From: Cryptosporangium minutisporangium
Lineage (GTDB): Bacteria > Actinomycetota > Actinomycetes > Mycobacteriales > Cryptosporangiaceae
Direction of reading: 5' to 3'
NCBI RefSeq assembly: GCF_039536245.1
Contig: NZ_BAAAYN010000010.1
Location: 250 to 33,945, forward strand
DNA: 33,696 nucleotides
Below are positions 9,185-32,367 of the stretch, one piece after another. The notes under the pieces were generated by a model, which searched no databases, was not told the DNA's origin, and saw nothing but the letters and a program-made list of their open reading frames with translations. Position 1 is the first letter of the stretch; each line of letters begins with the position of its first letter. The position numbers and the translations under genes are program-made.

Positions 9185-9192
9185 GGGAAGTC

Positions 9193-11330: not shown

Positions 11331-11350
11331 GGGACACCTCATCTGTCGGA

Positions 11351-11392: not shown

Positions 11393-11436
11393 GTAGCGTG
11401 GACCTACCGCCAGACACGTCGAGAGGAGCGGACGAC

Positions 11437-12051: not shown

Positions 12052-12055
12052 GGGT

Positions 12056-13889: not shown

Positions 13890-14746
13890 CGGCCGCCTCC
13901 GAACCGGGTGGCGAGCCGCTCGGCCACCACCGTGAACGCCACCACCGTGACCACCACCGCGCTCGCTGCCAGGATCGACTGCTGCGGGTACCCGGCCAGG
14001 ATCGACGGCTGCCCGTTCGCGATCATCAGACCCCAGTCGGCGGCGGGTGGCTGCATACCGAGACCGAGGAACGAGACCGACGCCAGGTCGAGCATCGCGT
14101 AACCGAAACCGATCGCCGCCTGGGCGAAGAGCAGCGGTCCCAGGTTGGGGATCAGGTGCCGGACACAGATGTGCCAGCCGGAGAAGCCCTGGACCCGCAG
14201 CGCCTCGATGTACGGCAACGACCGTTCCCGCATCGCCGCGGCCCGCATGACCCGGGCCACCAGCGGCACGAACGCGATCGAGAGCGCCACCACCGGTGCG
14301 ACGAACCCGGTGCCGAACACCGCCACGACCGTGATCGCCAGCACCAGGCCGGGGAACGCGAACAGGACGTCGATCACCCGGGAGACGGCGGCGTCGAACC
14401 AGCCACCGAACCAGGCCGCCGACACCGCGATCGCGGTACCGGCCACCCCGGACGCCACCACGACGATCAGCGGCCCGACCAGGCTCGACCGGGATCCGAC
14501 GAGCAGTCGGGAGAGCAGGTCACGCCCCAGGTCGTCGGTGCCGAGCGGATGCTCGGCGGAGAACGGGGCCAGCGCGTTGAGCGGGTCGACCGCGTTCGGG
14601 TCGTGCGGAGCCAGCCAGGGTGCGAGCACCGCGATCAGCACGACCGCGACGCAGATCGTCCCGGCGACCCCCGTGGCCCAGCCGACCGACGCGAGCCGGT
14701 GCACGGGGTTCAGCCAGCCCCGGCGGGCCACCGTCAGCGCGGTCAC
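13886..14746 (-). CDS. Oligopeptide-type ABC transporter permease (DppC-like)
   Basis: A 286-aa inner-membrane permease. It has an N-terminal transmembrane helix (about 25-47), the family motif HPLGTDDLGRDLLSRLLVGSR, then five hydrophobic segments in the permease domain. The coupling-helix motif region is EALRVQGFSGWHICVRHLIPN. It starts with GTG overlapping the stop of the DppB-like gene (GTGA). It forms a heterodimeric channel with that protein. Confidence 0.94.
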   Translation of the reverse strand: MTALTVARRGWLNPVHRLASVGWATGVAGTICVAVVLIAVLAPWLAPHDPNAVDPLNALAPFSAEHPLGTDDLGRDLLSRLLVGSRSSLVGPLIVVVASGVAGTAIAVSAAWFGGWFDAAVSRVIDVLFAFPGLVLAITVVAVFGTGFVAPVVALSIAFVPLVARVMRAAAMRERSLPYIEALRVQGFSGWHICVRHLIPNLGPLLFAQAAIGFGYAMLDLASVSFLGLGMQPPAADWGLMIANGQPSILAGYPQQSILAASAVVVTVVAFTVVAERLATRFGGGR

Positions 14747-15699
14747 GAGGCCTCCCCGGCGCGCAGCAGGCGGGGGTCGAGCAGCGCGTTGACGACGTCG
14801 ACCAGCATGTTGACGACGACGAACCCGGCGACCAGCAGCAGCGAGATCACCTGGACCACGACCAGGTCCTGCCGGGCCGCGCTCTGGACCAGCAGCGATC
14901 CCAGGCCCGGGACACCGAACGCCTGCTCGGCCACCGCGGTGCCGGCGAACAGGCCGGCCACCGTGATGCCGGAGACCGCGAGCACCGGGGGAGCGGCGTT
15001 GCGCAGCACGTGCCGTCGCAGCACCGACCGGCGTCGCAGGCCCCGCGCGGCGGCGGCCTCGACGTGGTCCGCGGCGAGCGCGGTCCGTACCTCGGCGCGG
15101 GTGATCCGGGTGACGTACGCGAGGTAGCTCAGGCTCAGCGCGAACGCCGGCAGGGTCAGGTGGTAGATCCGGTCGACGAAGCCGGTGCCGGATCCGTACA
15201 CCGGGAACCAGGCCAGCTTCGTGGCGAACACCCAGATGAGGACGATCGCCGCGACGAACGCCGGCGCGGCGATCAGCACCGTCGTCGTCCCGGTGATCGC
15301 GACGTCCACCGTCCGGCGGCCCAGCGCCGCGACGATGCCGCCGGTCACGCCGAACCCCAGGATGAGGACCGACGCGTACCCGACCAGCAGCACGGTGTTG
15401 AGCAGCCGCGCGCCGATCAGATCGGTGACCGGCTCGCCCACCACGATCGACTCGCCCGGGTTGCCGGACAGGACCCCGGTGACCCAGTGCCAGTACTGGG
15501 CGAGGAACGGGTCGTCGAGGTGGTACTCCGCACGGATCTGGGCCAGCGCCGCCGGGTCCGGCTGATGACCGCCGACCAGCAGGACGGCCGCGTCACCGGG
15601 TGCGGCGTAGAGCGCACCGTAGATCACCAGGCTGGCGACCGCGACGGTCGCCAGGACCCCGGCGAGCTTGCGCCCGACGAAGATCAGCAGTGCTCTCAC
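14743..15699 (-). CDS. Oligopeptide-type ABC transporter permease (DppB-like)
   Basis: A 318-aa inner-membrane permease of normal family length. The first transmembrane helix (about 6-28) is followed by the periplasmic loop with APGDAA and LAQIRAEYHLDDPFLAQYWHW, then the permease domain with coupling region ARGLRRRSVLRRHVLRNAAPP. The GTG start at 15699 overlaps the binding-protein stop (GTGA), which decides it over longer in-frame starts. It partners with the DppC-like subunit. Confidence 0.93.
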   Translation of the reverse strand: MRALLIFVGRKLAGVLATVAVASLVIYGALYAAPGDAAVLLVGGHQPDPAALAQIRAEYHLDDPFLAQYWHWVTGVLSGNPGESIVVGEPVTDLIGARLLNTVLLVGYASVLILGFGVTGGIVAALGRRTVDVAITGTTTVLIAAPAFVAAIVLIWVFATKLAWFPVYGSGTGFVDRIYHLTLPAFALSLSYLAYVTRITRAEVRTALAADHVEAAAARGLRRRSVLRRHVLRNAAPPVLAVSGITVAGLFAGTAVAEQAFGVPGLGSLLVQSAARQDLVVVQVISLLLVAGFVVVNMLVDVVNALLDPRLLRAGEAS

Positions 15700-17375
15700 G
15701 ACTTCGCCTTGCCGACCTGCGCGGCCCACGGCGAGCTGATGTACGAGAACGAGGCCGGCGCGCCGGTGAGTCGCTTGTTGAGGAACAGCCGGTTGTACGA
15801 CTCGGCGAGCGTGATCTGCAGCTTGGCCGGCGCGTACACCTTCTGAGCGGCGACGAACGCGTTCGCCGACGCGGTCGGGTCGGTGGCCGACGTCGCGGTC
15901 AGGATGTTCTTGGTGACCGACGGGTCGCTGTAGTTCGTCCAGTTGAACAGGCCACCCTCGAGCACGAAGCCCGGCGCGTAGTACAGCGCTCCCGGCACCT
16001 CGATGTAGCCGGTGGTAGCGACCAGGTCGAACTGGGCGCGGGCGGCCGGGTCGTAGAACAGGGTGCCGAACTGGGTGGGCTGGAGTTGCTTGATCGTCAG
16101 CGTCAGGCCGAGCTTCTCCGCCGCGGCCTGCGCCAGCGTCGCGGTCTGCAGTAGCGACTGGTTGCCGGCCGGCACCGCGAGCGTGAGCGACTTCCGGCTG
16201 GGCGCGGCCTCGGCGACGAGCTTCTTCGCCGCCTCCAGGTCGGCCTTGCTGGTGTCCAGGAGCGCGTCGTACCCGGCGTCGTAGACCTCCTTGGCCGGGC
16301 TACCCGACCAGACCAGGGGAGGGGTGAACGTCTTGAGCGGCCGGCCGGTGCCCTTCAGCACGCTGCTCGCGAAGCTGTTCTTGTCGATCGCGAGGTCCAG
16401 CGCCTGACGGATCCGCGGGTCGGCGGCCGGGCCGGAGTCCGACGCCGGGCCGAGGCTGTAGGTCTCGGTGCTCTCACCGAAGTAGACGGTGCCGACGTCC
16501 GACCGGCGCAGCGCGGCCAGGCCGCCCAGCGGCACGCCGTAGATGCCGTCCACCTCGCCGGAGAGCAGCGCGCTGGTCAGCGTGCTGTCGTCGCTGAGGA
16601 ACACGAACTCGAACGTGGCCGCCTTGGCCTTCCGGGCGGCGTCCCAGTAGGTGGGGTTGCGCTTCAGCGTGATGTTCTGCCCGGACTTCCAGCTCCCGAC
16701 CGTGAACGGTCCGGTGCACTGGACGCCGGTGCTCGGCGTGCCGAACTTCGGCCCGGCCTTGGTCGCGAAGGCCTGGTCGACGATCATGCCCGGCACGCCG
16801 GCCATGCTGTTCACGAACTGGACGTCCGGCACCCGGAACCGGACCGTGACCTCCAGCGGGCCCGTTTTGTCGATCGAGGCGACGTTGAAGAAGACGTGCG
16901 CGGCGTAGGACGCGAGCTTCGGGTCCATGTTCCGCTTCAGGCTGTAGACGACGTCCTCCGCCGTCATCTCCGAGCCGTCCCAGAACGTCACGCCGTCCCG
17001 CAGCGAGATCACGACGGTCGTCGGGTCCTTCTGGGTGACGGCGGTCGCCAGTCCGGGCGCGGTCGAGAAGTCCGGCTGCAGGAGCAGCAGGCTCTCGCAG
17101 AGGTTCGTGACGATCGAGTTCGCCGAGTAGTCGCCGGTCTTGGCGGGGTCGAGCGATCGCGGTTCGCCGTACGGTAACGCCCACGTCACGGAGTCGACGT
17201 CACCGACGGCGGCCGGCGTGGTTTCGGTGAGCGTGATCTTCCCGTCGGCGGCCTTGTCGTCCGACGAGCCACCTCCGTTGCAGCCGACGAGCACGAGGCT
17301 CGCGACGAGCGTGGAGGTCACCACCGGAAGGAGCCGTCGCAGCCTGGCTCCGGACGTCCTACGAGTCGGGTTCAT
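15696..17375 (-). CDS. ABC transporter substrate-binding lipoprotein, family 5
   Basis: A 559-aa extracellular solute-binding protein (SBP_bac_5 family: peptides, nickel, glycosides and related ligands). The signal peptide has a basic start (NPTRRTSGARLRR), a hydrophobic core and the lipobox LVGC with lipidated Cys32. The mature part has the family features EPRSLDPAKTGDYSANSIV, GVTFWDGSEMTAEDVVYSLKR and RQALDLAIDKNSF. The start at 17375 is supported by AGGAG 8 nt upstream; a longer in-frame start at 17528 would bury the signal peptide. It is first of the five-gene importer operon. The promoter region (17376-17613) carries the element shared with the TetR promoter. Confidence 0.94.
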   Translation of the reverse strand: MNPTRRTSGARLRRLLPVVTSTLVASLVLVGCNGGGSSDDKAADGKITLTETTPAAVGDVDSVTWALPYGEPRSLDPAKTGDYSANSIVTNLCESLLLLQPDFSTAPGLATAVTQKDPTTVVISLRDGVTFWDGSEMTAEDVVYSLKRNMDPKLASYAAHVFFNVASIDKTGPLEVTVRFRVPDVQFVNSMAGVPGMIVDQAFATKAGPKFGTPSTGVQCTGPFTVGSWKSGQNITLKRNPTYWDAARKAKAATFEFVFLSDDSTLTSALLSGEVDGIYGVPLGGLAALRRSDVGTVYFGESTETYSLGPASDSGPAADPRIRQALDLAIDKNSFASSVLKGTGRPLKTFTPPLVWSGSPAKEVYDAGYDALLDTSKADLEAAKKLVAEAAPSRKSLTLAVPAGNQSLLQTATLAQAAAEKLGLTLTIKQLQPTQFGTLFYDPAARAQFDLVATTGYIEVPGALYYAPGFVLEGGLFNWTNYSDPSVTKNILTATSATDPTASANAFVAAQKVYAPAKLQITLAESYNRLFLNKRLTGAPASFSYISSPWAAQVGKAKS

Positions 17376-17510
17376 CAGGGTTGCTCCTGGGGGAGGGCGA
17401 GGGCCGGCACCGCACCGGTGGTGCGTCGCGGACGGTCGGCAGGCGTTGGAGGCCGCATGGCGGGGGTCACGCGGTCGTCCTGCGATGACCGGTTCAGGCT
17501 GCCGCCACCC

Positions 17511-17527
17511 AGGTTGATTGTCAATCA
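17511..17527. promoter_or_regulatory. Operator/promoter element of the importer operon
   Basis: TGATTGTCAATCA (17515-17527) is a perfect inverted repeat around a central T. Read towards the importer genes it gives TTGACAATCAACCTG, in which TTGACA (17524-17519) is a consensus -35. The TetR promoter at 11369-11384 has TGACAATCAAACCTG. The -10 here is not convincing. An AT-rich tract (17529-17544) flanks it. The rest of 17376-17613 holds no gene. Confidence 0.6.
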
Positions 17528-17613
17528 TGGAAATTAATTATTTACGGTGCTCGTCGCCGAGGATCCCGTGGCGTGGGCCTCCTTGGAGGGGGATAGATAG
17601 TCGCGATGACCAG

Positions 17614-18495
17614 TTATCGGGGTTGGTGCGGAGTGCTGCTGATGGCGCGCCGGTAGTGCGCGGCGATCTCGTCGCTGGTGGTCAGCCACGCTTCCGGCTG
17701 GGCCGCGAGGTACGCCAGTGCCTCGTCGAGGTAGCGGGCCCGGAACGGCTGCCCGATCACGAACGGGTGCAGAGCCAGTGCGAGCACCCGGCCGCTCGGG
17801 TGGGCATCGTTCCGCAGTTGGTCGAACTGGTCCCGCACGATCCGGACGAACTCCGGCCCGGGCGTGCCCTTACCGAACAGCAGCAGGTCGTTGAGCTCGA
17901 CCGAGTACGGAACGCTGAGCATGCCGGGCACCGCGAACTCGTACGGCTGGTCGTCGTTCGTCCAGTCGAGGACGTACTCCAGGCCGAGCTCGGCGAGCAG
18001 GTGCGGGGTCCGCGCGGTTTCGGTGAGCCCTGGACCCATCCAGCCGCGCGGTCGCCTGCCGACGGCGTCCGCGATCGTGTCGACGATGTCGGCGAGGACG
18101 CGACGCTCCTCGTCCGGCGGCAGGTCGGCGTGGAGTGCCGAGTTCGTGCGTCCGTGCGCGAGCCAGGCCCAGTCCCGCTCCAGGCCGGCCCGGATGATCT
18201 GCGGGTACTCTGCCGGGACCATCGAGTTCAGCAGGACGCTGGGGCGAATTCCGTGCCGGTCGAGGCTCTCGATCGTGCGCCAGATCCCGACCCGCGCACC
18301 GTAGTCCCGCCAGCCGTAGTTGAGCGGGTCGGGCACCAGGTCGGCGGTGCCGGGCCAGATGCTGGTCGACGGGCGGTCCACGAGGAAGTGCTCGACGTTG
18401 AGGCCCACGTACACGGCGACGGTGGCGCCACCGGGCCACTCGATCGAGGGGCGCTCGGTGATCGGGCTGTACGGAAAGGGTGGAGTGTTCGTCAT
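17614..18495 (-). CDS. Polysaccharide-deacetylase-fold protein (PuuE-like)
   Basis: A 293-aa protein of the NodB-fold superfamily, closest in pattern to the PuuE allantoinase-like group: PGGATVAVYVGLNVEHF near the start, then YGWRDYGARVGIWRTIESLDRHGI, RGWMGPGLTET and ALHPFVIGQPFRARYLDEAL near the end. The metal-binding H-x3-H motif of classical deacetylases is not visible, as expected for the PuuE-type branch. The likely reaction is hydrolysis of a cyclic amide or another C-N bond; the substrate is unknown. A TACCGT -10 lies 6 nt before the ATG, implying a leaderless mRNA. The promoter has a 20-bp spacer with an internal palindrome, typical of MerR control, and the MerR gene is divergent 40 bp away. 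Confidence 0.85.
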   Translation of the reverse strand: MTNTPPFPYSPITERPSIEWPGGATVAVYVGLNVEHFLVDRPSTSIWPGTADLVPDPLNYGWRDYGARVGIWRTIESLDRHGIRPSVLLNSMVPAEYPQIIRAGLERDWAWLAHGRTNSALHADLPPDEERRVLADIVDTIADAVGRRPRGWMGPGLTETARTPHLLAELGLEYVLDWTNDDQPYEFAVPGMLSVPYSVELNDLLLFGKGTPGPEFVRIVRDQFDQLRNDAHPSGRVLALALHPFVIGQPFRARYLDEALAYLAAQPEAWLTTSDEIAAHYRRAISSTPHQPR

Positions 18496-18501
18496 GTAGG
18501 G

Positions 18502-18533
18502 ACGGTAAAACCTGACACCGGTGTTAAGTTCAA
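18502..18533 (-). promoter_or_regulatory. MerR-type promoter with 20-bp spacer
   Basis: Minus strand: -35 TTGAAC (18533-18528), -10 TACCGT (18507-18502), spacer 20 bp, centred on the palindrome ACACCGGTGT, which extends imperfectly to AACTTAACACC/GGTGTCAGGTT. Overlong spacers with a central dyad are the hallmark of promoters that MerR proteins activate by DNA distortion. Confidence 0.7.
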
Positions 18534-18535
18534 GC

Positions 18536-18892
18536 ATGCGAATCGGCGAACTCGCCCGGCGAACCGGGGTCAGTGAACGGTCGCTGCGGTACTACGAGCA
18601 ACGCGGCCTGCTCGCCTCCGCGCGGACCGCCGGTGGGCACCGCGACTACCCGGAGCGCGCGGTCGAGCGGGTGATCCGGATCCAGGAGCTGTTCGCCGCC
18701 GGCCTGCACAGCGCGAAGATCGCGCAACTGCTGCCCTGCATGCGGGACGCCGACGGGGGTCCGTCCGAGAAAGCGACGCCGCGGCTCGTCGCCGAGCTCA
18801 CCGCCGAGCGCGAGCGCATCGACCAGATGCTCACCGAGCTGGCGAACTCCCGGGCCGTGCTCGACGAGGTGATCGACGCCGCCAAGCAGTGA
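18536..18892 (+). CDS. MerR-family transcriptional regulator
   Basis: A 118-aa regulator. The MerR winged helix-turn-helix is at 1-70 (MRIGELARRTGVSERSLRYYEQRGLL, then GGHRDYPERAVERVIRIQEL), followed by a coiled-coil dimerisation helix (about 80-115). There is no C-terminal metal-binding cysteine set and no effector domain, so the signal is unknown. It starts 3 nt from the -35 element of the divergent deacetylase-like gene and likely controls it. It converges with the DUF4185 gene with a 12-bp gap. Confidence 0.93.
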   Translation: MRIGELARRTGVSERSLRYYEQRGLLASARTAGGHRDYPERAVERVIRIQELFAAGLHSAKIAQLLPCMRDADGGPSEKATPRLVAELTAERERIDQMLTELANSRAVLDEVIDAAKQ

Positions 18893-21858: not shown

Positions 21859-22737
21859 TCACCCCGGACGAAATCGCCCGAGTTCCAGGTCGAGCATCCG
21901 CTCCGCGCCCGGCAGCAAACCCTGATAGCACCGTCGGTACACCGCGGCGCTCTGGTCGGCCGGCCAGTCCGGGGACAGGTAGCGCGCGGGGAGCCCCGGA
22001 TCGGCGCGCAGCACCCGTAGCCAGTCGGCGCCGAGCCGGGTGATCTGAGCCAGCGGATCCTCCGCGCCCGGGCCGCTCCACCACGCGTGGATGAACGCGT
22101 CGTGCCGTTCGCGAATCCGGTCGACCGGCCAGGCGCGGCGAATGAACGCCTCCACCTGCACGCCGGCGAGCGGCGAGGCGCCGAACCACTCCGCCAGTTC
22201 GGCGACCTCGTCGAGGCCGGCGTCGGCCAGGACCGCGGCGACGTCGACGGTGCCCGGAGCGATCCACACTCCGTCCCGCAATCCCCCGAAACCGGCCCAC
22301 GTCAACGCCGCGCGGACCCGGTGCCGGAGATCGCGCCGGCTCTCCGGCATCGAGTAACTCAGCAGAGTCCACTCACCGTCCGGATGCTCGAACGGCGCCG
22401 ACGACTCGACTCGAACGGCCGCCTTGCCGACCAGCTCCGCCGCTTCGTCGCTCAGCCGGTAGTGGGCGGCGCGACCGACCCGGGTGCGCTCCAGAAGCCC
22501 TCGCCGAGTCATGCGGGCGAGCGTCGCCCGGGCCGCCGCTTCGGCGACACCGAGACGGCTCAACAGCCGGAGGAACACCGCCGCGGGGATCGGCGGCAGG
22601 TCGCGTCCGTGCACCACGCCACCGAAGAAGCTGAACAGCAGCGCCTGCGGGCGGTAACTGGTCCGGCTCCCGGCGGTGTTGCCTGCCTCCTGACCCGCCC
22701 CGGCGGCCGCACCTGCCCGCTCTTCCAGCGCCCTCAC
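21859..22737 (-). CDS. PaaX-family transcriptional regulator (copy 1)
   Basis: A 292-aa regulator of the PaaX family (repressors of CoA-thioester catabolic pathways; they sense aryl-CoA in the phenylacetate system). The N-terminal winged helix contains LPPIPAAVFLRLLSRLGV and ARATLARMTRRGLLERTRVG. The central region has HPDGEWTLLSYSMPESRRDLRHR and GGLRDGVWIAPG, followed by the C-terminal domain. By eye it is about 70% identical to the second PaaX at 30185-31060, so the two are paralogues bracketing one operon. The start is uncertain: GTG 22737 gives an N-terminal arm like that of copy 2, and GTG 22785 is also possible. The palindrome at 22789-22800 lies in its promoter. Confidence 0.9.
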   Translation of the reverse strand: MRALEERAGAAAGAGQEAGNTAGSRTSYRPQALLFSFFGGVVHGRDLPPIPAAVFLRLLSRLGVAEAAARATLARMTRRGLLERTRVGRAAHYRLSDEAAELVGKAAVRVESSAPFEHPDGEWTLLSYSMPESRRDLRHRVRAALTWAGFGGLRDGVWIAPGTVDVAAVLADAGLDEVAELAEWFGASPLAGVQVEAFIRRAWPVDRIRERHDAFIHAWWSGPGAEDPLAQITRLGADWLRVLRADPGLPARYLSPDWPADQSAAVYRRCYQGLLPGAERMLDLELGRFRPG

Positions 22738-22787
22738 GTTCGTACGCCCTTCGTCGGCCTCCGTGGCGTCCCACGTTAGACACACTA

Positions 22788-22816
22788 TTGACGTACGTCA
22801 GCAACACTTCTACTTT
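22788..22816 (+). promoter_or_regulatory. Promoter of the import/CoA-ligase operon with PaaX-type operator
   Basis: TTGACG (22788-22793), a 17-bp spacer and TACTTT (22811-22816) form a good vegetative promoter, giving a leader of about 75 nt. The perfect palindrome TGACGTACGTCA (22789-22800) covers the -35 and lies upstream of the divergent PaaX gene, as expected for a repressor acting on both. PaaX binding is inferred. Confidence 0.75.
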
Positions 22817-22898
22817 CCATGTGACCCCCGCCACGCAACCCCTTCGGGTCGGCCCGTCGTCTCGGCCGTCGTCGAAGGACTGGCTCGGAAGGCCACGT

Positions 22899-24482
22899 AT
22901 GCGCGATCCACTCCTGGCCATCGACGATCTCGAGGTCGTGTACGACGGCGCCGTGCAAGCGCTCCGCGGTGTCTCGTTGCGAGTCGACGCGGACAGCGTC
23001 GTGGCGGTACTCGGCAGCAACGGCGCGGGCAAGACGACGCTGTTACGCGCGGTGTCCCGGTCGTTGGGCGCCGTCGGCGGCACGATCAGCGCCGGCTCCG
23101 TCCGCTTCGACGGACACGACCTGGCGCGCCGGGACGCCTCCTGGGCCGTGCGTGCCGGGTTGGTCCAGGTACCCGAGGGGCGGCGGATCTTCCGCGACCT
23201 GACCGTCGAGGAGAATCTCCGGGCCGGAGGCACCACGGTCCGCGACGCGCGGACCCGCAAGAGCGCGTTCGAACGGGTCTACGAACTCTTCCCGATCCTC
23301 GCCGAGCGCCGTCAGCAGCGCGGAGGCCTGCTCTCCGGCGGACAGCAGCAGATGCTCGCGATGGGCCGGGCGCTGATGACCGCACCGAAGTTGCTCCTGC
23401 TCGACGAGCCCTCGCTGGGGCTGGCCCCTCAGCTGGTCGAGCAGATCGGCGACCTGATCGGACAGATCCACGCGCAGGGCACCTCCGTCCTCCTCATCGA
23501 GCAGAACGCGGCCATGGGCCTGCGGGTCTCCGACCGTGCCTACGTGCTGGAAGTCGGCCGGATCACCGCGGAGGGCACCTCCACCGAGCTGGCCGCGACC
23601 GACGACATCCGCGACCGGTATCTCGGCGTCGGCGCCACCTCGTCGACCCGGACGACACCGCGGGACGAACCGATCGAGGTGTCGGTGCACCTCCAGCGCT
23701 CCTCGACGGCCGAGGCCCGGGTACTCCGCGTCGACGATCTCCAGGTGCGGTTCGGCGGCATCGCGGCGCTCTCCGGAGTGTCGTTCACCGTCGAGGCCGG
23801 CACGGTGCACGCGTTGATCGGACCCAACGGCGCAGGGAAGTCCACCTGCCTCAACGTTCTCGGCGGCGCCTACCGCGCGACCTCCGGCTCCGTCCACTAC
23901 GGCGACACCGAGCTCACCACGCTCCCGGCGCACCGCATCGCCGACCTCGGGGTCGCCCGCACTTTCCAGAACCTCTCGCTGTCCCTGGAGGCCACCGTCG
24001 AGGACAACCTGTTGGTCGGCCGCCACCGGATCATGCGGGCCGGCACCTCGTCCCAAGCGCTCCGGCTCCCACGCGCCCGGAAGGAGGAGCGCACCGAACG
24101 CGCGACCGTGCGCCGCATCGCCACGCTGCTCGGTATCGACGGACTCCTCGATCGCAGCGTGCACACGCTCTCCTACGGCGACCGCAAGCGGGTGGAGATG
24201 GGCCGCGCGCTCGCCGCCGAGCCCACGCTTCTGCTGCTCGACGAGCCGGTCGCCGGCATGACGCACGGTGAGTCGATGGCGATGGCCGACACGATCCGGG
24301 CCGTGCAGCAAGAACTGGGACTGTCCATCCTCCTCGTCGAGCACGACATGCCGTTCGTCATGGGGCTCGCCGAACGCGTCACCGTGCTCGATTTCGGCAA
24401 ACGCATCGCCGAGGGCAGCCCCCAGGACGTTCAGCGGGACCCCGAGGTCCTGCGCGCCTACCTCGGAACGGCGGCGGCATGA
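22899..24482 (+). CDS. Fused LivF-LivG type ABC transporter ATPase
   Basis: A 527-aa single chain holding two complete ATPase domains of the branched-chain amino acid (HAAT) importer type. Domain 1 (about 1-245) is LivF-like: Walker A GSNGAGKTT (39-47), signature LLSGGQQQMLAMGRAL, Walker B LLLLDEPSLGLAP. Domain 2 (about 275-527) is LivG-like: Walker A GPNGAGKST (308-316), signature TLSYGDRKRVEMGRAL, Walker B LLLLDEPVAGM, and switch EHDMPFVM. A Thr/Arg/Asp-rich linker (about 246-274) joins them. The two subunits are usually separate genes, commonly G before F, so this is an F-then-G fusion. GGAAGG lies 6 nt before the ATG, fixing the start over a longer in-frame reading from 22788. It overlaps the LivH gene by 4 nt. 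Confidence 0.95.
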   Translation: MRDPLLAIDDLEVVYDGAVQALRGVSLRVDADSVVAVLGSNGAGKTTLLRAVSRSLGAVGGTISAGSVRFDGHDLARRDASWAVRAGLVQVPEGRRIFRDLTVEENLRAGGTTVRDARTRKSAFERVYELFPILAERRQQRGGLLSGGQQQMLAMGRALMTAPKLLLLDEPSLGLAPQLVEQIGDLIGQIHAQGTSVLLIEQNAAMGLRVSDRAYVLEVGRITAEGTSTELAATDDIRDRYLGVGATSSTRTTPRDEPIEVSVHLQRSSTAEARVLRVDDLQVRFGGIAALSGVSFTVEAGTVHALIGPNGAGKSTCLNVLGGAYRATSGSVHYGDTELTTLPAHRIADLGVARTFQNLSLSLEATVEDNLLVGRHRIMRAGTSSQALRLPRARKEERTERATVRRIATLLGIDGLLDRSVHTLSYGDRKRVEMGRALAAEPTLLLLDEPVAGMTHGESMAMADTIRAVQQELGLSILLVEHDMPFVMGLAERVTVLDFGKRIAEGSPQDVQRDPEVLRAYLGTAAA

Positions 24483-25369
24483 CGTACCTCCTCACCCAGC
24501 TCGCCAACGGCCTGTCGCTGGGCTTGATCCTCGGCCTGATCGCGGTCGGCTTCGTCATCGTCTTCACCTCGACCGGTGTCCTCAACTTCGCGCACGGCTC
24601 GGTGCTACTGGCCGGCGTGTACCTCGTCGCCGTACTCCACGAGTCCCTCGGCTTCTGGTTCGCCGCCCTCGTCGGGATACTCGGCGCGGCCTTACTGGCG
24701 GTACTGATCAACGCCGTCCTGGTCCGCAACCTGGCCGAGTCGAACCCCGGCACCGCGGCGATCCTCATGCTCGGCGTCGACATCCTCCTGCTCACCGAGT
24801 TGACCCGCCGGATCGGCAGCGACGTCAAGCCGCTGGGTGCCCCCTGGGGCGCCGACGTCGTCTCGGTCGGCGGTGTCACCCTTCCCTGGAGCCGAGCGAT
24901 CGCCGCGGCCGTGGCCCTCGTCGTCTTCGGTCTGCTCTGGTACCTCTTCGCCCGCACCTCCGCCGGGGTCGCGATGCGAGCGGCGGCCGCCGACGGGGAC
25001 ACCGCGGCCCTGATGGGCATCCGCCTGTCCCGTACCGGTGCGGCCGGCTGGGCGCTGGCCGGAGCGCTCGCCGCGGTGGCCGGCATCTTCCTCGCGTCCT
25101 TCCCCGCGCCCGGGGTGACACCGACGCTCGCGGTCAGCGCCTTCGCCGCGATCCCCGCCTGGGTGCTGGGCGGCTTCGACTCGGTCGTCGGCGCGATCGT
25201 GGGGGGCCTGGTCATCGGGGTCGTGACCGCGCTCGCCGTCGGCTACGAGTCCGAGCTGCACTTCCTCGGCCGCGGACTCGGGGAGGTCGTCCCGTACGCG
25301 GTGATGATCCTCGTGCTGCTGGTGCGGCCCTCCGGCCTGTTCGGCGGCAAGGAGGCCGTCCGTGTCTGA
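24479..25369 (+). CDS. HAAT-type ABC transporter permease (LivH-like)
   Basis: A 296-aa membrane permease with about eight hydrophobic segments. The opening LLTQLANGLSLGLILGLIAVG and the family motif NFAHGSVLLAGVYL are typical of LivH. The coupling region includes AAAADGDTAALMGIRLSR. The start ATG overlaps the ATPase stop (ATGA). It would form the channel heterodimer with the next gene product. Substrates of this family extend beyond amino acids to urea, amides and aromatic or aliphatic acids. Confidence 0.94.
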   Translation: MTYLLTQLANGLSLGLILGLIAVGFVIVFTSTGVLNFAHGSVLLAGVYLVAVLHESLGFWFAALVGILGAALLAVLINAVLVRNLAESNPGTAAILMLGVDILLLTELTRRIGSDVKPLGAPWGADVVSVGGVTLPWSRAIAAAVALVVFGLLWYLFARTSAGVAMRAAAADGDTAALMGIRLSRTGAAGWALAGALAAVAGIFLASFPAPGVTPTLAVSAFAAIPAWVLGGFDSVVGAIVGGLVIGVVTALAVGYESELHFLGRGLGEVVPYAVMILVLLVRPSGLFGGKEAVRV

Positions 25370-26528
25370 GCTCCTCCGCAAGGCCCCGGTGCTGGCGCTG
25401 CTCCTCGTCGGATTGGCACTGCCGCTGGTCCTGGACGACTTCTGGCTCCAGACCGGACTGTTCGCGATGGCTGCGGCCGTCGGCGCGATCGGGCTGACGC
25501 TGCTGGTCGGTACGGCCGGCCAGCTCTCTCTCGGCCACGCGTTCTTCGTGGCGCTCGGCGCCTACTCCTACGCCTGGACGGTGGGCGAGGTTGGCGGACG
25601 CGCCGCCGGTCTCGGCTTACCCCCGCTGCTGGGGCTCGTCCTGGCCGGTCTGGTGGCGGCGGTCGCCGGTGCGGTGTTCAGCCCGATCTCCGGCCGCCTC
25701 CGCGGGATCTACCTGGGACTCGCCACCATCGGACTGGTGTTCCTCGCCCGGCATCTCATGGTCAACATCGAGGACGTGACCGGCGGGTTCAACGGCCGAA
25801 CCGTCGAGCCGTTCGCGGTTCCCGGCTTCAGCTTCAGCAACGCCGATCCGGACTACCTCGCGATCGCCGGTGTCGAGTTCCAAGGCCTGCACCGGCTCTG
25901 GTACCTCTTCCTCGGCATCGCCCTGCTCGCCGCCTGGCTGGGACGCAACGTCAAGTCCAGCCGGGCCGGCCGGGCCCTCGCCAACGTCCGCGACAGCGAG
26001 GCAGCGGCGGCCGCGATGGGCATCCACGTCGCTCGCGCCAAGGCGACGGCGTTCGTCATCTCCTCCGCCTACGCCGGTGTCGCCGGTGCCCTGATGGCGC
26101 TGGCCTACGGTCGGATCGCTCCGGACCTCTTCGGCTTGCAGCTGTCGATCGACTTCCTCGTGATGATCGTGCTCGGCGGTCTCGGCTCCGTCGCCGGCGC
26201 CGCGGCCGGCGCGGTGTTCGTCGTCGCGCTGCCGCTCGTGCTCACGCAGTACGGGTCGGAGCTGCCGTTCCTCGCGGCCCCCGGCTCCGGCGGATTGGAC
26301 GCGGCCACCCTGTCCCGGCTGCTCTACGGCGCGTCGATCATCGCCGTCCTGCTCTTCTTCCGCGGCGGCCTGGCCGGCGCCGCACAGAGGGTCCGTCACC
26401 GCTGGACCCGCCGGTCCACGGACGCCGAACTGCCGCCCCCCACGCCCGACTCCTCGCCCACCGCTCCGAACGCCGACGCCCCCCTCGCCTCCGACGCCCC
26501 GCTCACGTCCAAGGAGACCGCTCCATGA
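25362..26528 (+). CDS. HAAT-type ABC transporter permease (LivM-like)
   Basis: A 388-aa membrane permease. The LivM core (about 1-340) has GTAGQLSLGHAFFVALGAYSYAW, the coupling region VRDSEAAAAAMGIHVARAK and GGLGSVAGAAAGAVF. After the last helix a cytosolic tail of about 45 residues is rich in Pro, Ala, Ser and Asp, longer than usual and probably disordered. The GTG start overlaps the LivH end by 8 nt, so translation is coupled. Confidence 0.93.
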   Translation: MSELLRKAPVLALLLVGLALPLVLDDFWLQTGLFAMAAAVGAIGLTLLVGTAGQLSLGHAFFVALGAYSYAWTVGEVGGRAAGLGLPPLLGLVLAGLVAAVAGAVFSPISGRLRGIYLGLATIGLVFLARHLMVNIEDVTGGFNGRTVEPFAVPGFSFSNADPDYLAIAGVEFQGLHRLWYLFLGIALLAAWLGRNVKSSRAGRALANVRDSEAAAAAMGIHVARAKATAFVISSAYAGVAGALMALAYGRIAPDLFGLQLSIDFLVMIVLGGLGSVAGAAAGAVFVVALPLVLTQYGSELPFLAAPGSGGLDAATLSRLLYGASIIAVLLFFRGGLAGAAQRVRHRWTRRSTDAELPPPTPDSSPTAPNADAPLASDAPLTSKETAP

Positions 26529-27775
26529 GAAACCGGATCCGCACCGCACTGGTGGCCGTCGGCTGCGTCGCAGCCCTGGCCGCCTGCTCGACACAGGACC
26601 CCGACGCCGGCAAGGACGGCGCCAACGGGGACGTGAAGACCGGAAACGGCGTCACCGGCGACACGATCACGGTCGGCATGCTCACCGACCTCTCCGGACC
26701 GTTCGCCGCCGGCGCGGCCGTCCAGGTCACCGAAACCAAGGCCTACTTCCAGCAGCTGAACAAGGACGGCGGGGTCTGCGGTCGGCAGGTCGAGGTCGAC
26801 GTCCGGGACCACGGTTACGACCCGCAGAAGGCCGTCACCCTCTACCGCAGCATGGCCTCGAAGGTCGTCGCGCTGCAGCAGGTACTCGGCGGTCCGACCT
26901 CGGCCGCCGTGCTCCCGCTGGCCGAAGCCGACGGCGTCTACCTCGGCGGGCACGGCTGGTCCAGCGTCGCGCTGGAGTACGAGAACGCCCAGCTCCCCGG
27001 CACGACCTACAGCGTCGAGTCCGCCAACGCCGTGGACTACCTGGTCGACGAACTCGGTGTGTCGAAGGGTGACAAGGTCGGCGTCGTCTACTTCGTCGGT
27101 GACTACGGCAACGACTCGCTGGCCGGCGCGAAGCACGCCGCCAAGGAACGCGGCCTCGAGATCGTGCCGCAGGAGATCACCCCGCGCGACGCGGACCTGT
27201 CGGCCCAGGCCTCCGCGCTGAAGCGCGCCGGGGTGTCCGCCGTGATCCTCGGCGCCGCTCCGGGCCAGCTCGCCTCGCTCGCCGGGGTCATGGCGTCGCA
27301 GGGCCTCAACGTGCCGATCGTCGGCAACACGCCGACGTTCGGACCGTCGCTGCTGAAGACTCCGGCCGGCCCCGCGCTGCTCCGCAACTTCTACACGGTC
27401 ACCAGCATCGCGCCGTACAGCCTCGACGAGCCCGCCGTCAAAGACGCCCAGCGCCTGTACACGGCCGCCGACCCGGACGGCGAACTCGGCTGGGAGGTCC
27501 CGCTCGCCTACGCCCAGGCCGAGCTGCTCACCGTGGCGCTGAAGGCCGCCTGTGACGCCGGAGACCTCACCCCCGAGGGTGTCGTCGCCGCCATGCGCAA
27601 GACCGCGGACCTGGACACCAAGGGCCTCTACGCCACCCCGCTGGACTTCACCGACGCCACGCAGCCCCCGACGCGCACGGTCTACGTCTCGCGGGCCTCG
27701 GCCGACGCTCCCGGCGGGCTGAAGGTGCTGACGACGCTCAGCGGCCCCAGCGCCAAGTCCTACAAGTTCGAGTGA
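26525..27775 (+). CDS. ABC transporter substrate-binding lipoprotein (LivK-like, Peripla_BP_6)
   Basis: A 416-aa lipoprotein. The signal peptide has the basic start RNRIR and the lipobox LAAC with Cys21, followed by an Asp/Gly/Lys-rich linker. The mature domain begins ITVGMLTDLSGPFAAGAAV, the characteristic start of type I binding proteins. It would hold the ligand outside the cell and deliver it to the Liv-like permeases. The ATG overlaps the LivM stop (ATGA). Its position among CoA-ligase and PaaX genes suggests the ligand is an organic acid rather than an amino acid. Confidence 0.94.
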   Translation: MRNRIRTALVAVGCVAALAACSTQDPDAGKDGANGDVKTGNGVTGDTITVGMLTDLSGPFAAGAAVQVTETKAYFQQLNKDGGVCGRQVEVDVRDHGYDPQKAVTLYRSMASKVVALQQVLGGPTSAAVLPLAEADGVYLGGHGWSSVALEYENAQLPGTTYSVESANAVDYLVDELGVSKGDKVGVVYFVGDYGNDSLAGAKHAAKERGLEIVPQEITPRDADLSAQASALKRAGVSAVILGAAPGQLASLAGVMASQGLNVPIVGNTPTFGPSLLKTPAGPALLRNFYTVTSIAPYSLDEPAVKDAQRLYTAADPDGELGWEVPLAYAQAELLTVALKAACDAGDLTPEGVVAAMRKTADLDTKGLYATPLDFTDATQPPTRTVYVSRASADAPGGLKVLTTLSGPSAKSYKFE

Positions 27776-29373
27776 CGATGGTTGGTCCCGTTCGGCGCTG
27801 CGAGCTCACCGCTTCGGCAGCGAGCGGCCTGGCGGAGCGCGTCGTCGGCGACGTGCTCCGCCGGCCCGCCCGGCTCGGTCCGACCGACATCGTCGTCCGA
27901 GCCGTAACTCCGTCCGGCGAGACGGTCTGGACCGCGGCGGAGCTCCTGAGCGACGCGGAAGGGGTGGCAGCCGGTCTCCTGGCGCGGTACGCGCCGGGGG
28001 ACCGGATCGCCACCTGCCTGGTCAACGGCCCCGAGGCCGTGCTGCTCCAACTGGGCGTAGCGCTGGCCGGGATGACGCTGGTCCCGGTGAACCCGCGCTC
28101 CCGGCCGCAAGAGATCGAACACGCGCTCAGCCTGTCCGGCGCCACCGCGATCTACGCGGCTGAAGACGCGGCGGGCAACCCGGCCGCCGATATCGCCACC
28201 GATCTCACGCTTCCGCTCGAGGTATTCCGTTGCGACGGTGACTGGCGAGCGCTCGTGACCGCCGAGACCGTCCCCCTTCCCGACGTGGCACCGGACGCGC
28301 TGGCCCAGATCCAGTTCACCTCCGGCACGACCGGCCGCTCCAAAGGCGTCCGGATCACCCACCACGGAATGGTGGTCACCTCGCACGCCTTCCGCGATCG
28401 GATCGGACTGCCGACGGGCGGCACCTGGGTCAACCCGATGCCGCTGTTCCACACGGCGGGCAACGTGCTCGGAGTGCTGGGCGCGCTCTGGCAGCGGTGT
28501 GAACACGTGGTGCTGCCGTTCGCGCCGGCCCCGGTGTTGTCGCTGCTGGCCGCGCGGGAAGCCACCCTGCTCTCGGCGGCGCCGACACTGCTCGACCTGC
28601 TCATGGCGCGGCCCGAGATCCACACCGCGGACCTCGACGCGCTGCAGGTCGTGTTCACCGGAGGCCAGACCATCGGACCCGCGTTCGCCGAGCGGGTCGA
28701 GCGCACCTTCGGTGCGCGGCTGTCGACCACGTTCGGGATGACGGAGACCTGCGGCGCCGCTCTGCAGACCGCACCGACCGACCCCGACGAGGTCCGCTGG
28801 ACGACGGTCGGGCGTCCGCTACCCGGCACGGACGTCCGCATCGCGACTCCGGCGGGCCACGCCACGGCACCGGGCGAGCCGGGGGAGCTGTGGCTCCGCG
28901 GCGCCCGTCTGACCACCGGCTACTACGGGGACGACCAGGCGACCGCCGCCGCGATCGACCGGGACGGTTGGCTGCACACCGGCGACCTGGCCATCATGGA
29001 CGCGACGGGGGCCTGTCGTATCGTCGGCCGGCTCAAGGACATGATCAAGACCGGGGGAGAGAACGTCTCCCCGGAGGAGGTCGAGGAAGTCATCGCCGCA
29101 CATCCCTCGGTGGCCCGGGCCGCCGTCGTCGGTGCTCCCCACGACCGCTGGGGCGAGTTGGTCGTCGCGTTCGTGGTGGCCGCCGAGGGCGCCGGAACCG
29201 TCGAACCCGCCGCGCTCGAGCAGCACTGCCGCGAGCGACTCTCCCCGTTCAAGGTGCCCCGCGCCTGGCGAGTCACGGACGAGCTGCCGATGACCGCGTC
29301 GACGAAGATCCAGCGTGCGGAGCTCCGTCGTCGAGCGGCCGCCGACCCGACCCTCCGACCGAGGACCTCATGA
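27772..29373 (+). CDS. AMP-dependent acyl/aryl-CoA ligase (ANL family)
   Basis: A 533-aa ANL-superfamily enzyme: organic acid + ATP + CoA giving acyl-CoA + AMP + PPi. Motif A3 is TSGTTGRSKG (about 183-192), A5 is TFGMTETCG, A7 is HTGDLAIMD (about 402-410), A8 is GRLKDMIKTGGENVSPEEVEE, and the catalytic lysine is in STKIQR (about K512). All are intact. The pattern resembles medium-chain or cyclohexanecarboxylate/benzoate-like ligases, but the acid is not identifiable. The start is GTG at 27772 overlapping the LivK stop (GTGA); ATG at 27778 is an alternative. It likely activates the compound imported by the upstream transporter and thereby makes a CoA thioester that PaaX proteins could sense. 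Confidence 0.94.
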   Translation: MTMVGPVRRCELTASAASGLAERVVGDVLRRPARLGPTDIVVRAVTPSGETVWTAAELLSDAEGVAAGLLARYAPGDRIATCLVNGPEAVLLQLGVALAGMTLVPVNPRSRPQEIEHALSLSGATAIYAAEDAAGNPAADIATDLTLPLEVFRCDGDWRALVTAETVPLPDVAPDALAQIQFTSGTTGRSKGVRITHHGMVVTSHAFRDRIGLPTGGTWVNPMPLFHTAGNVLGVLGALWQRCEHVVLPFAPAPVLSLLAAREATLLSAAPTLLDLLMARPEIHTADLDALQVVFTGGQTIGPAFAERVERTFGARLSTTFGMTETCGAALQTAPTDPDEVRWTTVGRPLPGTDVRIATPAGHATAPGEPGELWLRGARLTTGYYGDDQATAAAIDRDGWLHTGDLAIMDATGACRIVGRLKDMIKTGGENVSPEEVEEVIAAHPSVARAAVVGAPHDRWGELVVAFVVAAEGAGTVEPAALEQHCRERLSPFKVPRAWRVTDELPMTASTKIQRAELRRRAAADPTLRPRTS

Positions 29374-30188
29374 ACTCCGCACTGCTCACGCAGCTCCTGG
29401 ACGACCTCGCGCAGGAGGGCAGCGAACTCGACCTGCTCGTCGCGGAGCTGCCCGCGGCGGCGTGGGCCACCCCGACGCCCGCCGCCGGCTGGACGATCGC
29501 CCATCAGATCGCCCACCTGGCCGGGACCGACGAAGTCGCCCGTCTCGCCGTGGTCGATCCCGACGAATTCCGCACGCAGCGCGACAGAGTCGACCCGACG
29601 GCGAACGGAACGATCGACGCGGCCGCGGAGGCCGGAGCGGCCGCCGCCCCGGACGAGTTGCTCCACCGCTGGCGGACTGCGCGCGCCGCACTCGCCTCGG
29701 CCCTGCTGGCGCTGCCCCAGGGCACGCGCATCCCGTGGTTCGGCCCCGACATGGGTGCGACCTCGATGGCGACCGCCCGGCTCATGGAGGTGTGGGCCCA
29801 CGGCGTCGACGTCCGGGACGCGCTCCACCTACCCACCCTCGCCACCTCTCGACTGCGGTCGGTCGCGCACCTCGGCGTCCGAACCCGCGACTTCGCCTTC
29901 TACCAGCGGTCGCTGAACCCTCCCGCGGCCGAGTTCCGCGTCGAACTCACCGGACCGAACGGCGAGCCGTGGACGTGGGGTCCGCCCGACGCCGCCCAGC
30001 GAGTCACCGGCCCGGCCCTGGACTTCTGCCTCTGCGTGACCCGCCGCAGGCACCGCGACGACCTCGCGCTGCAGGTGATCGGAGACGACGCGAACCGCTG
30101 GATCGACGTGGCGCAGGCGTACGCCGGACCGCCCGGACCGGGACGACGGCCGTCCCGGGACAGCACGGAGGATTCGATCCCCCGGTGA
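29370..30188 (+). CDS. TIGR03084-like protein with MDMPI/DinB-type N-terminal domain
   Basis: A 272-aa protein. The N-terminal helical bundle resembles the maleylpyruvate isomerase/mycothiol-transferase N-terminal domain (MDMPI), with metal-ligand candidates H45 and H49 in GWTIAHQIAHL and a further His in EVWAHGVDVRDAL. The C-terminal part (about 165-260) matches the TIGR03084 pattern with FELTGPNGEPW-like text. Members of the wider fold can use mycothiol, so an isomerase or thiol-transferase step on the activated acid is possible, but no reaction is proven. The ATG overlaps the ligase stop (ATGA). The C-terminal tail is Arg/Pro/Ser-rich. Confidence 0.82.
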   Translation: MNSALLTQLLDDLAQEGSELDLLVAELPAAAWATPTPAAGWTIAHQIAHLAGTDEVARLAVVDPDEFRTQRDRVDPTANGTIDAAAEAGAAAAPDELLHRWRTARAALASALLALPQGTRIPWFGPDMGATSMATARLMEVWAHGVDVRDALHLPTLATSRLRSVAHLGVRTRDFAFYQRSLNPPAAEFRVELTGPNGEPWTWGPPDAAQRVTGPALDFCLCVTRRRHRDDLALQVIGDDANRWIDVAQAYAGPPGPGRRPSRDSTEDSIPR

Positions 30189-31060
30189 CGCGCGTGGAAC
30201 TGCAGGAGACCGAGCACGACGATGTCGACGGCGCCAACCAGTCGGTCGGATCCGGGAACGGCCGCCGTCCGCAGACGCTGGTGTTCGCCTTCTTCGGGGG
30301 CGTGATCCACGGCCGCGACCTGCCGCCCATCCCGACGGCGGTGTTCCTCCGGCTGTTCGGATCGCTCGGCGTCGCTCCCGCGGCTGCGCGCGCCACCCTC
30401 GCCCGCATGACGCGTCGCGGACTGCTCGAGCGCGTCCGGATCGGGCGGGCCGCCCACTACCGATTGAGCCCGGTCGGTGATGCGATCGTGCGCAAGGCGG
30501 CCCAGCGCGTCGAGGCGCCCGCGCCGTTCGAGCACCCCGACGGGCAGTGGACGCTGTTGAGCTACTCGATGCCGGAGACCCGGCGCGACCTGCGACATCG
30601 GATGCGGGCGGCGCTGACCTGGGCGGGGTTCGGCGGGCTGCGGGACGGACTCTGGATCGCGCCGGGCCTCGTCGACGTGGGCGAGGTCTTCGCCGAGGCG
30701 GGGCTCACCGAGGCCGCCGGACTGGCCGACTGGTTCGCCGCTCAGCCCTTGCCCGGAGTGCAGGTCGAGGACTTCATCCGCCGGGCGTGGCCCGTCGACC
30801 GCATCCGGGAGGAGCACGACCGGTTCATCCAGAAGTGGTGGACCTGGTCCGACGAGGAGGACCCGCTCGCCCAGCTCACCCTGCTGGGCTCGGACTGGCT
30901 GCGGGTGCTCCAGGCCGACCCCGGACTTCCGGCCCGCTTCCTGGCCCCGGACTGGCCCGCTGCGCAGAGCACCTCGGTCTACCGCCGGTGCCACCAGGCG
31001 CTGCTACCGGCCGCGGAACGGCGTCTCGACGTGGAGCTGGGTCTGGCTACCGTCGATTAG
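30185..31060 (+). CDS. PaaX-family transcriptional regulator (copy 2)
   Basis: A 291-aa PaaX-type regulator. The winged-helix region includes PPIPTAVFLRLFGSLGV and ARMTRRGLLERVRIG, and the central domain has HPDGQWTLLSYSMPETRRDLRHR and GGLRDGLWIAPG. It is about 70% identical by eye to the divergent copy at 21859-22737. The start is GTG overlapping the previous stop (GTGA), so this regulator is produced as the last cistron of the operon it may control; the first 28 residues are Asp/Gly-rich and divergent from copy 1. A strong terminator follows 38 bp downstream. Confidence 0.92.
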   Translation: MTRVELQETEHDDVDGANQSVGSGNGRRPQTLVFAFFGGVIHGRDLPPIPTAVFLRLFGSLGVAPAAARATLARMTRRGLLERVRIGRAAHYRLSPVGDAIVRKAAQRVEAPAPFEHPDGQWTLLSYSMPETRRDLRHRMRAALTWAGFGGLRDGLWIAPGLVDVGEVFAEAGLTEAAGLADWFAAQPLPGVQVEDFIRRAWPVDRIREEHDRFIQKWWTWSDEEDPLAQLTLLGSDWLRVLQADPGLPARFLAPDWPAAQSTSVYRRCHQALLPAAERRLDVELGLATVD

Positions 31061-31098
31061 CGGTACCGCGCGCCAGCGCAGCGGAGGGTAACGCCGGT

Positions 31099-31131
31099 GC
31101 GGGGCGGCACGCCGATGGCGTGCCGCCCCGC
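31099..31131. terminator. Strong 15-bp hairpin terminator
   Basis: GCGGGGCGGCACGCC (31099-31113) pairs perfectly with 31117-31131 around a GAT loop. It ends the seven-gene operon and also faces the remnant gene converging from the right, so it may work in both directions. Confidence 0.85.
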
Positions 31132-31141
31132 GTTGTGGAGG

Positions 31142-32367
31142 TCAGCCCGTGCTGAGCGTGCCCGCCAGCTTGGCGTCGCTGACCGAGCTGCCGACGTAGA
31201 TCGGGACGGCGCCCTTCGGCGTCACCCAGGCGTCGGCGGCGCTGTCCCAGTAGGAGAGCGACCGCTTCGGAATGGCGATCGTGATCGTCTTGCTGTCACC
31301 GGCCGCCAGCGTCGTCTTGGCGTACCCGACGAGCCGCCGGTCCGGTGTCGGGACGGAGCCCGGGAGCGGTCCGGCGGAGACCTGGGTGACGTCGGTGCCG
31401 GCCCGGCTGCCGGTGTTCTTCACCGTGAGCCGGACGCTCGCGGGGTCGCCGCTGAGCGGTAACAACGCGACCGCGTCCCGGCTGAACGTGGTGTACGACA
31501 GCCCGTAGCCGAACGGGAAGAGCGGTGTCCGGCCGGCCTTGCGCAGGTACTGGTAACCGACGAAGACGTCCTCGTCGTAGGTGACCGTGCCGTTCGTGCC
31601 CGGGTAGGACGCCGGCGACGACCCGACGGGCCGCTGGCTGTTGCTCGCGGGGAAGCTCACCGGCAGCCGCCCGCCCGGATCAGCGTCGCCGAAGAGCACC
31701 GACGCCGGACCGGTTCCGGTGGCCACTCCCGGGTACCACGCCTGCAGCACGCCCTGCACCTTCGACAGCCAGGGCATCAGGACGGCTCCGGGCGTGTTGA
31801 GCACGACCACGGTGCGCGGGTTCGCGGTGGCGACCGCGTCGATCAGCTGGTTCTGGTCGCCGGGAAGGTCGTAGGAGTCGCGATCCATGCCCTCGCCGGT
31901 GCTCTGGTTGACGTAGACGATCGCGACGTCGGCCTTCTTCGCGGCCTCGACCGCGGCCGGAATGAGCGACGTGGGCTGCCAGCCCAGGTGCAGTTCCGGC
32001 CCGAAGTAGCCGGGGCCCTGCGCCGAGACCGTGGAGTACTCGACGGTGATCGGCACCGCCTTGCCCGCGGTGAGCGGCACCTGTCCGGAGAGCGGGTAGG
32101 TCTCCGGACCGAACTGGAACCGGGAGAAGCTGCGGTCCCCGTCGATCACGGTCTTGCCGCCGATCGTCACCTTCACCGAGCCGGAGAGCACGGTGGAGAT
32201 GTTCGCGGTGCCGGTGGCGGTCGGGGTGAGCGTGCCGGTCCACCGCGCCGACCAGGCCTGCGGTAGCCCGGTCGTCGGAGCGCCGGTGAAGTCGACGGTC
32301 GGCGTGGTCTGGGTCTTGACCGGGCTGCCGGAGAAGTCCGCGGACGGGTAGAACGTCGCCTGGAGAC
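31142..32367 (-). pseudogene. Truncated GH3 beta-glucosidase, N-terminal half missing
   Basis: About 408 codons remain in frame. They encode a PA14-like domain (from LQATFYPSADFSGSP to GYFGPELHLGWQP), then the second part of the GH3 C-terminal domain (ADVAIVYVNQSTGEGMDRDS, YDLPGDQNQLI, PGGRLPVSFPAS) and the Fn3-like domain (PFGYGLSYTTFS to the stop). The (beta/alpha)8 domain carrying the catalytic aspartate and any signal peptide are absent. Homology stops at about 32367, where an unrelated plus-strand remnant begins, so the 5' half was lost by deletion or rearrangement. The reading frame continues upstream by chance but without GH3 features. The intact C-terminal frame suggests a fairly recent loss. 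Confidence 0.8.

Follow-up and report, generated by a model that had tools for sequence, protein, structure and literature searches.

A predicted PaaX-repressed operon for uptake and activation of hydroxycinnamates in Cryptosporangium minutisporangium

A stretch of 33,696 nucleotides of the actinobacterium Cryptosporangium minutisporangium (hereafter the window), almost the entire contig C10 (33,945 bases) of a 9.23-Mb genome in 152 contigs, carries a divergent PaaX-family gene followed by seven overlapping plus-strand genes, which encode a LivF–LivG fusion, LivH, LivM, LivK, an acyl-coenzyme A (CoA) ligase, a TIGR03084 protein and a second PaaX. We propose, with a probability of about 0.65, that these genes form an operon that is repressed by PaaX, takes up and activates hydroxycinnamates and stands apart from a CouR-controlled catabolic operon. 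The proposal draws on the anatomy of the locus, its conserved linkage to hydroxycinnamate genes in other actinobacteria, a conserved promoter-operator sequence, the occurrence of the pathway genes on another contig of this genome and the separate ancestry of the second PaaX.

Operon anatomy and linkage to hydroxycinnamate genes

Gene content and order were as described in the initial annotation of this DNA, and were confirmed by open frames and protein families. Together with the sites in the divergent gap, the features are as follows (window positions):

21859–22785, minus strand: paaX1, divergent PaaX-family regulator (Pfam PaaX, PaaX_M and PaaX_C all above cut-off)
22773–22801, minus strand: paaX1 promoter-like site (CTGACG ... 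TCTAACGT), which shares the palindrome and has 2 mismatches to the conserved pattern
22788–22816, plus strand: operon promoter-like site TTGACG-N2-CG-N11-TCTANNTT, a pattern found upstream of paaX in relatives
22789–22800, between paaX1 and livFG: 12-bp palindrome TGACGTACGTCA, predicted PaaX operator, matched by a cognate site in the equivalent position in relatives
22899–24482, plus strand: LivF–LivG fused ATP-binding protein (two ABC_tran stretches and BCA_ABC_TP_C)
24479–25369, plus strand: LivH permease (BPD_transp_2)
25362–26528, plus strand: LivM permease (BPD_transp_2)
26525–27775, plus strand: LivK-type substrate-binding protein (Peripla_BP_6; nearest solved structure 4n03)
27772–29373, plus strand: acyl/aryl-CoA ligase (AMP-binding; best solved matches 8weu and 8wev)
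29370–30188, plus strand: TIGR03084 family MDMPI/DinB-type metal-binding protein (342.3 bits, above the cut-off of 247.95)
30185–31060, plus strand: paaX2, terminal PaaX-family regulator (three Pfam PaaX domains above cut-off)

From livFG to paaX2, each plus-strand gene shares 4 or 8 bases with the next, so the seven genes are likely to form one coupled operon. They include a complete Liv-type (branched-chain amino acid type) ATP-binding cassette (ABC) importer, comprising two ATPase domains fused in a single polypeptide, two permeases and one binding protein. The livFG open frame runs from 22788; since 22788–22816 is promoter-like, the start is more likely at 22899, as relatives suggest, and that of paaX1 is likely at 22737. 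No terminator or promoter pattern was found after paaX2 (30900–31400).

Related loci were collected by scanning a genome collection once, using four aligned PaaX proteins as the query. The scan relied on two exact peptide patterns, so that more distant or variant loci were missed, and flanks were limited to 10 kb, some contigs ending sooner. It returned 34 close-PaaX loci, from Geodermatophilaceae, Pseudonocardia, Streptomyces and Actinomadura. Eighteen of them contain livFG, livH, livM and livK, and a ligase of the window type lies beside the Liv genes in 17 of the 18; the eighteenth, from Streptomyces apricus (L058), has in this position a CouL-like ligase instead, 75% identical to the CouL-like ligase encoded on contig C24 of C. 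minutisporangium (see below). A short-chain dehydrogenase/reductase (SDR) or amidohydrolase of the cou type, belonging to the p-hydroxycinnamate side-chain pathway, was present within 10 kb in 17 of the 18 Liv loci (16 with an SDR, one with an amidohydrolase only). Genes of the cou type without Liv genes occur in a further 10 loci, all from Actinomadura. Overall, cou-type genes stand beside the close PaaX in 27/34 loci. Gene by gene, the 34 loci contain the SDR in 25 cases, the amidohydrolase in 26, MaoC in 22, the CouL-like ligase in 16, a CouR-like gene in 9, vanA in 5 and TIGR03084 in 11. In nine of the 34 loci the distance between PaaX and a CouR-type gene is at most 1.5 kb, the two being directly adjacent in eight, and a variant repeat was seen by eye in these PaaX-plus-CouR loci. 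The grouping of uptake and CoA activation beside PaaX, described from the window alone, is thus conserved in other actinobacteria, with an operator-like site at the same place. By contrast, the MDMPI-type gene was dropped as a core part of the system, given its occurrence in 11 of the 34 stretches and the absence of any PDB chain matching its product at an E-value of 0.01.

In C. minutisporangium itself the pathway is unlinked to the Liv operon and is found on contig C24:

10647–11087, minus strand: couR-like MarR regulator, matching the RHA1 CouR structures
11180–12088: SDR, following the couR-like gene
12085–12984: amidohydrolase
12977–14497: feruloyl-CoA-synthetase-like (CouL-like) ligase
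14494–14958: MaoC
19678 to about 22056: vanA and vanB

The cou-type set thus spans 10647–14958 in the order couR-SDR-amidohydrolase-ligase-MaoC. Its MarR protein matches the Rhodococcus jostii RHA1 CouR structures 3fm5 and 5cyv at about 3e-32, and its ligase matches feruloyl-CoA synthetase at 1.7e-159. The sequence CATTGACACTCTCAATG, located between the couR-like gene and the SDR, equals the CouR box cATTGA-5-TCAATg as it appears in the accessible portion of PMC4737184; the exact box has no further copy in the genome, and no CouR box with up to two mismatches was found in the window. The initial annotation had described a stand-alone capture-and-activate module devoid of catabolic enzymes. That absence holds for the operon itself but not for the genome, and the idea of a stand-alone module is rejected by the C24 pathway, as well as by the relatives in which the Liv genes adjoin hydroxycinnamate catabolic genes. 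The operon looks like an orphan when contig C10 is viewed alone, and the remainder of the genome accounts for it.

The promoter and predicted operator

The sequence TTGACGTACGTCA, in the paaX1–livFG gap, occurs only once in the genome. It forms the centre of two back-to-back promoter-like sites, a forward and a mirrored version, and an equivalent layout is present in the paaX–livFG or paaX–SDR gap of relatives. The promoter box (at most one mismatch) was found upstream of PaaX in 29/34 loci: each of the 28 that have Liv or cou-type genes carries it there, as does one of the six that lack them. Since the 34 loci are related to one another, these occurrences are not independent cases. The single box-bearing locus of the latter six is L056 (9595–10786; Blastococcus saxobsidens 67B17), where PaaX and its box adjoin only a short livFG remnant, apparently after loss of the operon. 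The box is absent upstream of PaaX in L060, L068, L082, L084 and L085; the PaaX match of L082 starts at base 33 of its contig, and L068 has one box match, situated away from PaaX. The PaaX BLAST match of L071 crosses a stop, and the box overlaps its upstream end.

In the C. minutisporangium genome the exact promoter pattern occurs in two places, the other being C6:145499. With up to two mismatches its frequency is close to that of the control (13 forward and 23 reverse matches versus 16 and 15), so that only exact matches stand out. A site of the same kind, TTGACGACCGTCAC, precedes the paaX of the Streptomyces relative of PaaX2.

Several further observations concern this type of site. L060 (7701–10789; Modestobacter lapidis) has a looser palindrome, TTGACGCTCGTCA, together with a close PaaX (64%) divergent from genes that, by eye, encode an ABC system whose binding protein is of another type. 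A close PaaX (69%) in L132 (7934–10574; genome G275) is divergent from a sulfatase-like gene (by eye), and the gap between them contains TTGACGACCGTC and a similar -10; the same type of regulator is possibly applied there to sulfated phenolic acids. Many Liv promoters also show, by eye, a second motif resembling GTGACC-N3-ACCAC downstream of the -10.

The two PaaX proteins

PaaX1 and PaaX2 are close paralogues, identical at 201 of 270 aligned residues (74%, against the roughly 70% estimated initially). The three domains that exceed their Pfam cut-offs in both proteins are the helix-turn-helix (HTH), the Cas2-like middle and the C-terminal domains. Their HTH domains are 84% identical, with the AAARATLARMTRRGLLER stretch unchanged between them, and, of 105 strongly conserved PaaX columns, PaaX2 departs from four and PaaX1 from none. 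In a tree of 44 PaaX proteins, PaaX2 pairs with the PaaX of Streptomyces apricus (support 100/99) and next with that of Geodermatophilus amargosae (98/92). PaaX1 falls outside this group, in a clade with PaaX from Pseudonocardia and Geodermatophilaceae, its nearest relative by path being from Pseudonocardia; both proteins lie inside a larger clade of 10 rows (98/97), whose branching is resolved only in part. PaaX2 therefore groups with Streptomyces and Geodermatophilus proteins and not with its neighbour, so that it is not a recent local copy of PaaX1; a recent tandem duplication of paaX was rejected on this basis.

A second close PaaX (at least 50% identity) was found in none of the 34 loci within flanks of up to 10 kb. 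Consequently, the full seven-gene order with a terminal PaaX is specific to this strain among the loci examined, an outcome that the initial annotation had itself named as refuting its idea, while the part of it running livFG-livH-livM-livK-ligase is kept in relatives. A distant second PaaX (39–46%) is present in L056, in L057 from Blastococcus xanthinilyticus and in L068. Further sampling at an E-value of 1e-60 detected a close PaaX in 24 of the 397 genomes taken from the order, and at 1e-75 in 3 of the 394 taken from the class, C. minutisporangium included in both counts. G275 was the sole other genome of the order sample with two PaaX near 60–70% identity (68 and 59%), which lie 2.2 Mb apart, one of them beside the sulfatase-like gene; several others have a second of 44–49%. 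As a separate observation, a distant PaaX (45%) in L044 (8379–10469; genome G019) lies by eye between CoA-transferase-like and epoxide-hydrolase-like genes and directly adjoins a hydroxycinnamate locus.

Judging from these comparisons, PaaX2 most likely binds the same operator as PaaX1 and, as the last cistron, would be made mainly after induction, which would amount to negative feedback. Such operon-internal feedback is simpler than the heterodimers or two-threshold response to the thioester suggested in the initial annotation. These would fit the near-identical DNA-binding domains and the different promoters of paaX1 and paaX2, but they are rather improbable, given that a single PaaX suffices in the other Liv loci seen, that no second close one was found in the 34 loci and that the separate ancestry of PaaX2 does not suggest a co-evolved pair. 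A stronger competitor, although still one that we consider unlikely, is that PaaX2 is a passenger with no role of its own, a leftover regulator of another operon copy brought in by recombination; its grouping with Streptomyces and Geodermatophilus PaaX, the restriction of the terminal PaaX to this genome and the four altered conserved columns all speak for it. Nevertheless, the paaX2 frame is full length with three PaaX domains above cut-off, overlaps the upstream gene by 4 bases and retains an unchanged recognition-helix region. Control of phenylacetate degradation by both proteins, as the family name and the Pfam PaaX domains would imply, is highly improbable. The phenylacetate PaaX equivalog TIGR02277 scores 104.1 and 98.9 bits against a cut-off of 264.55, the predicted site differs from the E. 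coli site TGATTC(N27)GAATCA (accessible portion of PMC9493321), and cou-type genes recur beside this PaaX; control of phenylacetate degradation was set aside on the score and the linkage, the loci not having been searched for paa genes.

Elsewhere in the window, a tandem array of about 30 copies of a 32-bp unit (90% matches) occupies positions 214–1179, close to the contig end. By eye, the minus strand of 7778–18537 encodes a peptide-type ABC set (two ATPases, two permeases and a binding protein), flanked on both sides by amidase-like and deacetylase-like genes.

Substrate, proposed mechanism and known systems

Gene linkage, the C24 pathway and the solved matches of the ligase together make a hydroxycinnamate or close phenylpropenoid the probable substrate. 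Among solved structures, the window ligase best matches 8weu (E-value 1e-62) and 8wev (2e-62), the latter named feruloyl-CoA synthetase; the C24 ligase has the same two best matches, which are weaker for the window ligase. Alternatively, the operon could take up and activate a different acid (phenylpropanoate, fatty or alicyclic), its linkage to cou-type genes reflecting only that both serve plant-derived carbon. This explanation, which we regard as distinctly less probable, accommodates the separate CoA ligase kept by the catabolic operon and the NCBIfam results for the window ligase (at least 25 matches, those listed being general acyl-CoA ligases below cut-off). It has to contend, however, with the cou-type linkage of nearly all Liv loci, the CouL-like ligase that occupies this position in Streptomyces apricus and the feruloyl-CoA synthetase among the best solved matches.

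A number of observations weigh against our proposal, some of them favouring a different acid. 8weu is named fatty-acyl-CoA synthase. Identity between the window ligase and the CouL-like ligase on C24 reaches only 34%, so that the substrate of the window ligase may differ. LivK is nearest to 4n03 (40% identity; TM-score 0.88 by query and 0.94 by target length), which is titled fatty acid ABC transporter binding protein. Aromatic-acid binders come lower, at 16–20% identity (4q6w at rank 3, 4ey3 at rank 12 and the p-coumarate-bound 4f8j at rank 45), interspersed among binders of amino acids and urea, so that the fold of LivK does not decide the substrate. A profile search with LivK gave only 4n03 and 3lop at 1e-10. 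On the other hand, 4n03 is not a close guide to the LivK substrate, because two additional LivK-type proteins encoded in this genome are equally close to the window LivK (39–40%). Regarding regulation, the strict CouR box (at most one mismatch) is absent from the nine PaaX-plus-CouR loci, and the C24 promoter has no PaaX box, so that PaaX does not visibly link both operons here. Finally, the amidohydrolase is present in all five family genomes sampled, and three genus-mates have couR-SDR-amidohydrolase-ligase-MaoC in a row but no close PaaX (34–37% at best, none at 1e-60) and no close LivK (39–40% at best). The Liv operon is therefore dispensable: all four species sampled in the genus carry the breakdown operon, to which only this one adds the Liv operon.

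In the mechanism that we propose, the Liv-type transporter would import plant p-hydroxycinnamates (ferulate, p-coumarate and relatives), which the operon would convert to CoA thioesters. These would feed the CouR-controlled SDR-amidohydrolase-ligase-MaoC operon on C24 to yield 4-hydroxybenzoate or vanillate, and VanAB would then strip vanillate of its methyl group. When substrate is lacking, PaaX1 would sit on the palindrome, which overlaps both divergent -35 regions, and repress the operon and itself until released by hydroxycinnamoyl-CoA from the ligases. PaaX2, made only once the operon is on, would probably bind the same operator and shut the operon down as the thioester is consumed.

More tentatively, this PaaX-family lineage may sense hydroxycinnamoyl-CoA instead of phenylacetyl-CoA and act on a compact 12-bp operator; in various actinobacteria it may work alongside CouR, a MarR sensor unrelated to it, or take its place. 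One thioester would then be read by two regulator families, for uptake and for breakdown, and here a second PaaX of separate origin would have been added within the operon as an inducible self-repressor. The proposal offers a likely substrate class (lignin- and cell-wall-derived hydroxycinnamates) for an unassigned PaaX clade and a recurrent actinobacterial Liv transporter, as well as a testable operator. If the effector is hydroxycinnamoyl-CoA, the PaaX-type sensor would represent an independent solution beside the MarR-type CouR, FerC and HcaR to the same sensing task, and could serve as a biosensor for acids derived from lignin.

Aromatic CoA sensors named in the accessible portion of PMC4424350 include CouR and HcaR (p-coumaroyl-CoA), FerR and FerC (feruloyl-CoA), and PaaX and PaaR (phenylacetyl-CoA). 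Both this source and PMC2265553, in the portions available, mention PaaX and hydroxycinnamate, PaaX going there with phenylacetate; PaaX control of hydroxycinnamate genes was not found in the accessible portions of PubMed Central open papers.

With the cou regulon of R. jostii RHA1, in which CouO is an amidohydrolase (PMC4737184, in the part available), C24 shares a CouR-like MarR protein, an exact copy of the CouR box, a CoA ligase and an enzyme of the amidohydrolase family. The arrangement in C. minutisporangium differs from that regulon in that transport and a second ligase are placed in a separate operon beside PaaX-family genes, with no CouR box. CouPSTU of Rhodopseudomonas palustris, an ABC importer implicated in phenylpropenoid acid uptake and encoded beside coumarate genes (available part of PMC3610893), likewise has a dedicated binding protein; unlike that system, LivK is here closer to 4n03 than to the p-coumarate-bound 4f8j, LivF and LivG are fused and the regulator belongs to another family. 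Both window regulators share three PaaX domains with PaaX of Escherichia coli and pseudomonads. E. coli PaaX represses an aromatic CoA pathway and its own promoter (PMC9493321, in the part available), whereas the PaaX described here is associated with a compact 12-bp palindrome, recurrent cou-type linkage and scores far below the TIGR02277 cut-off.

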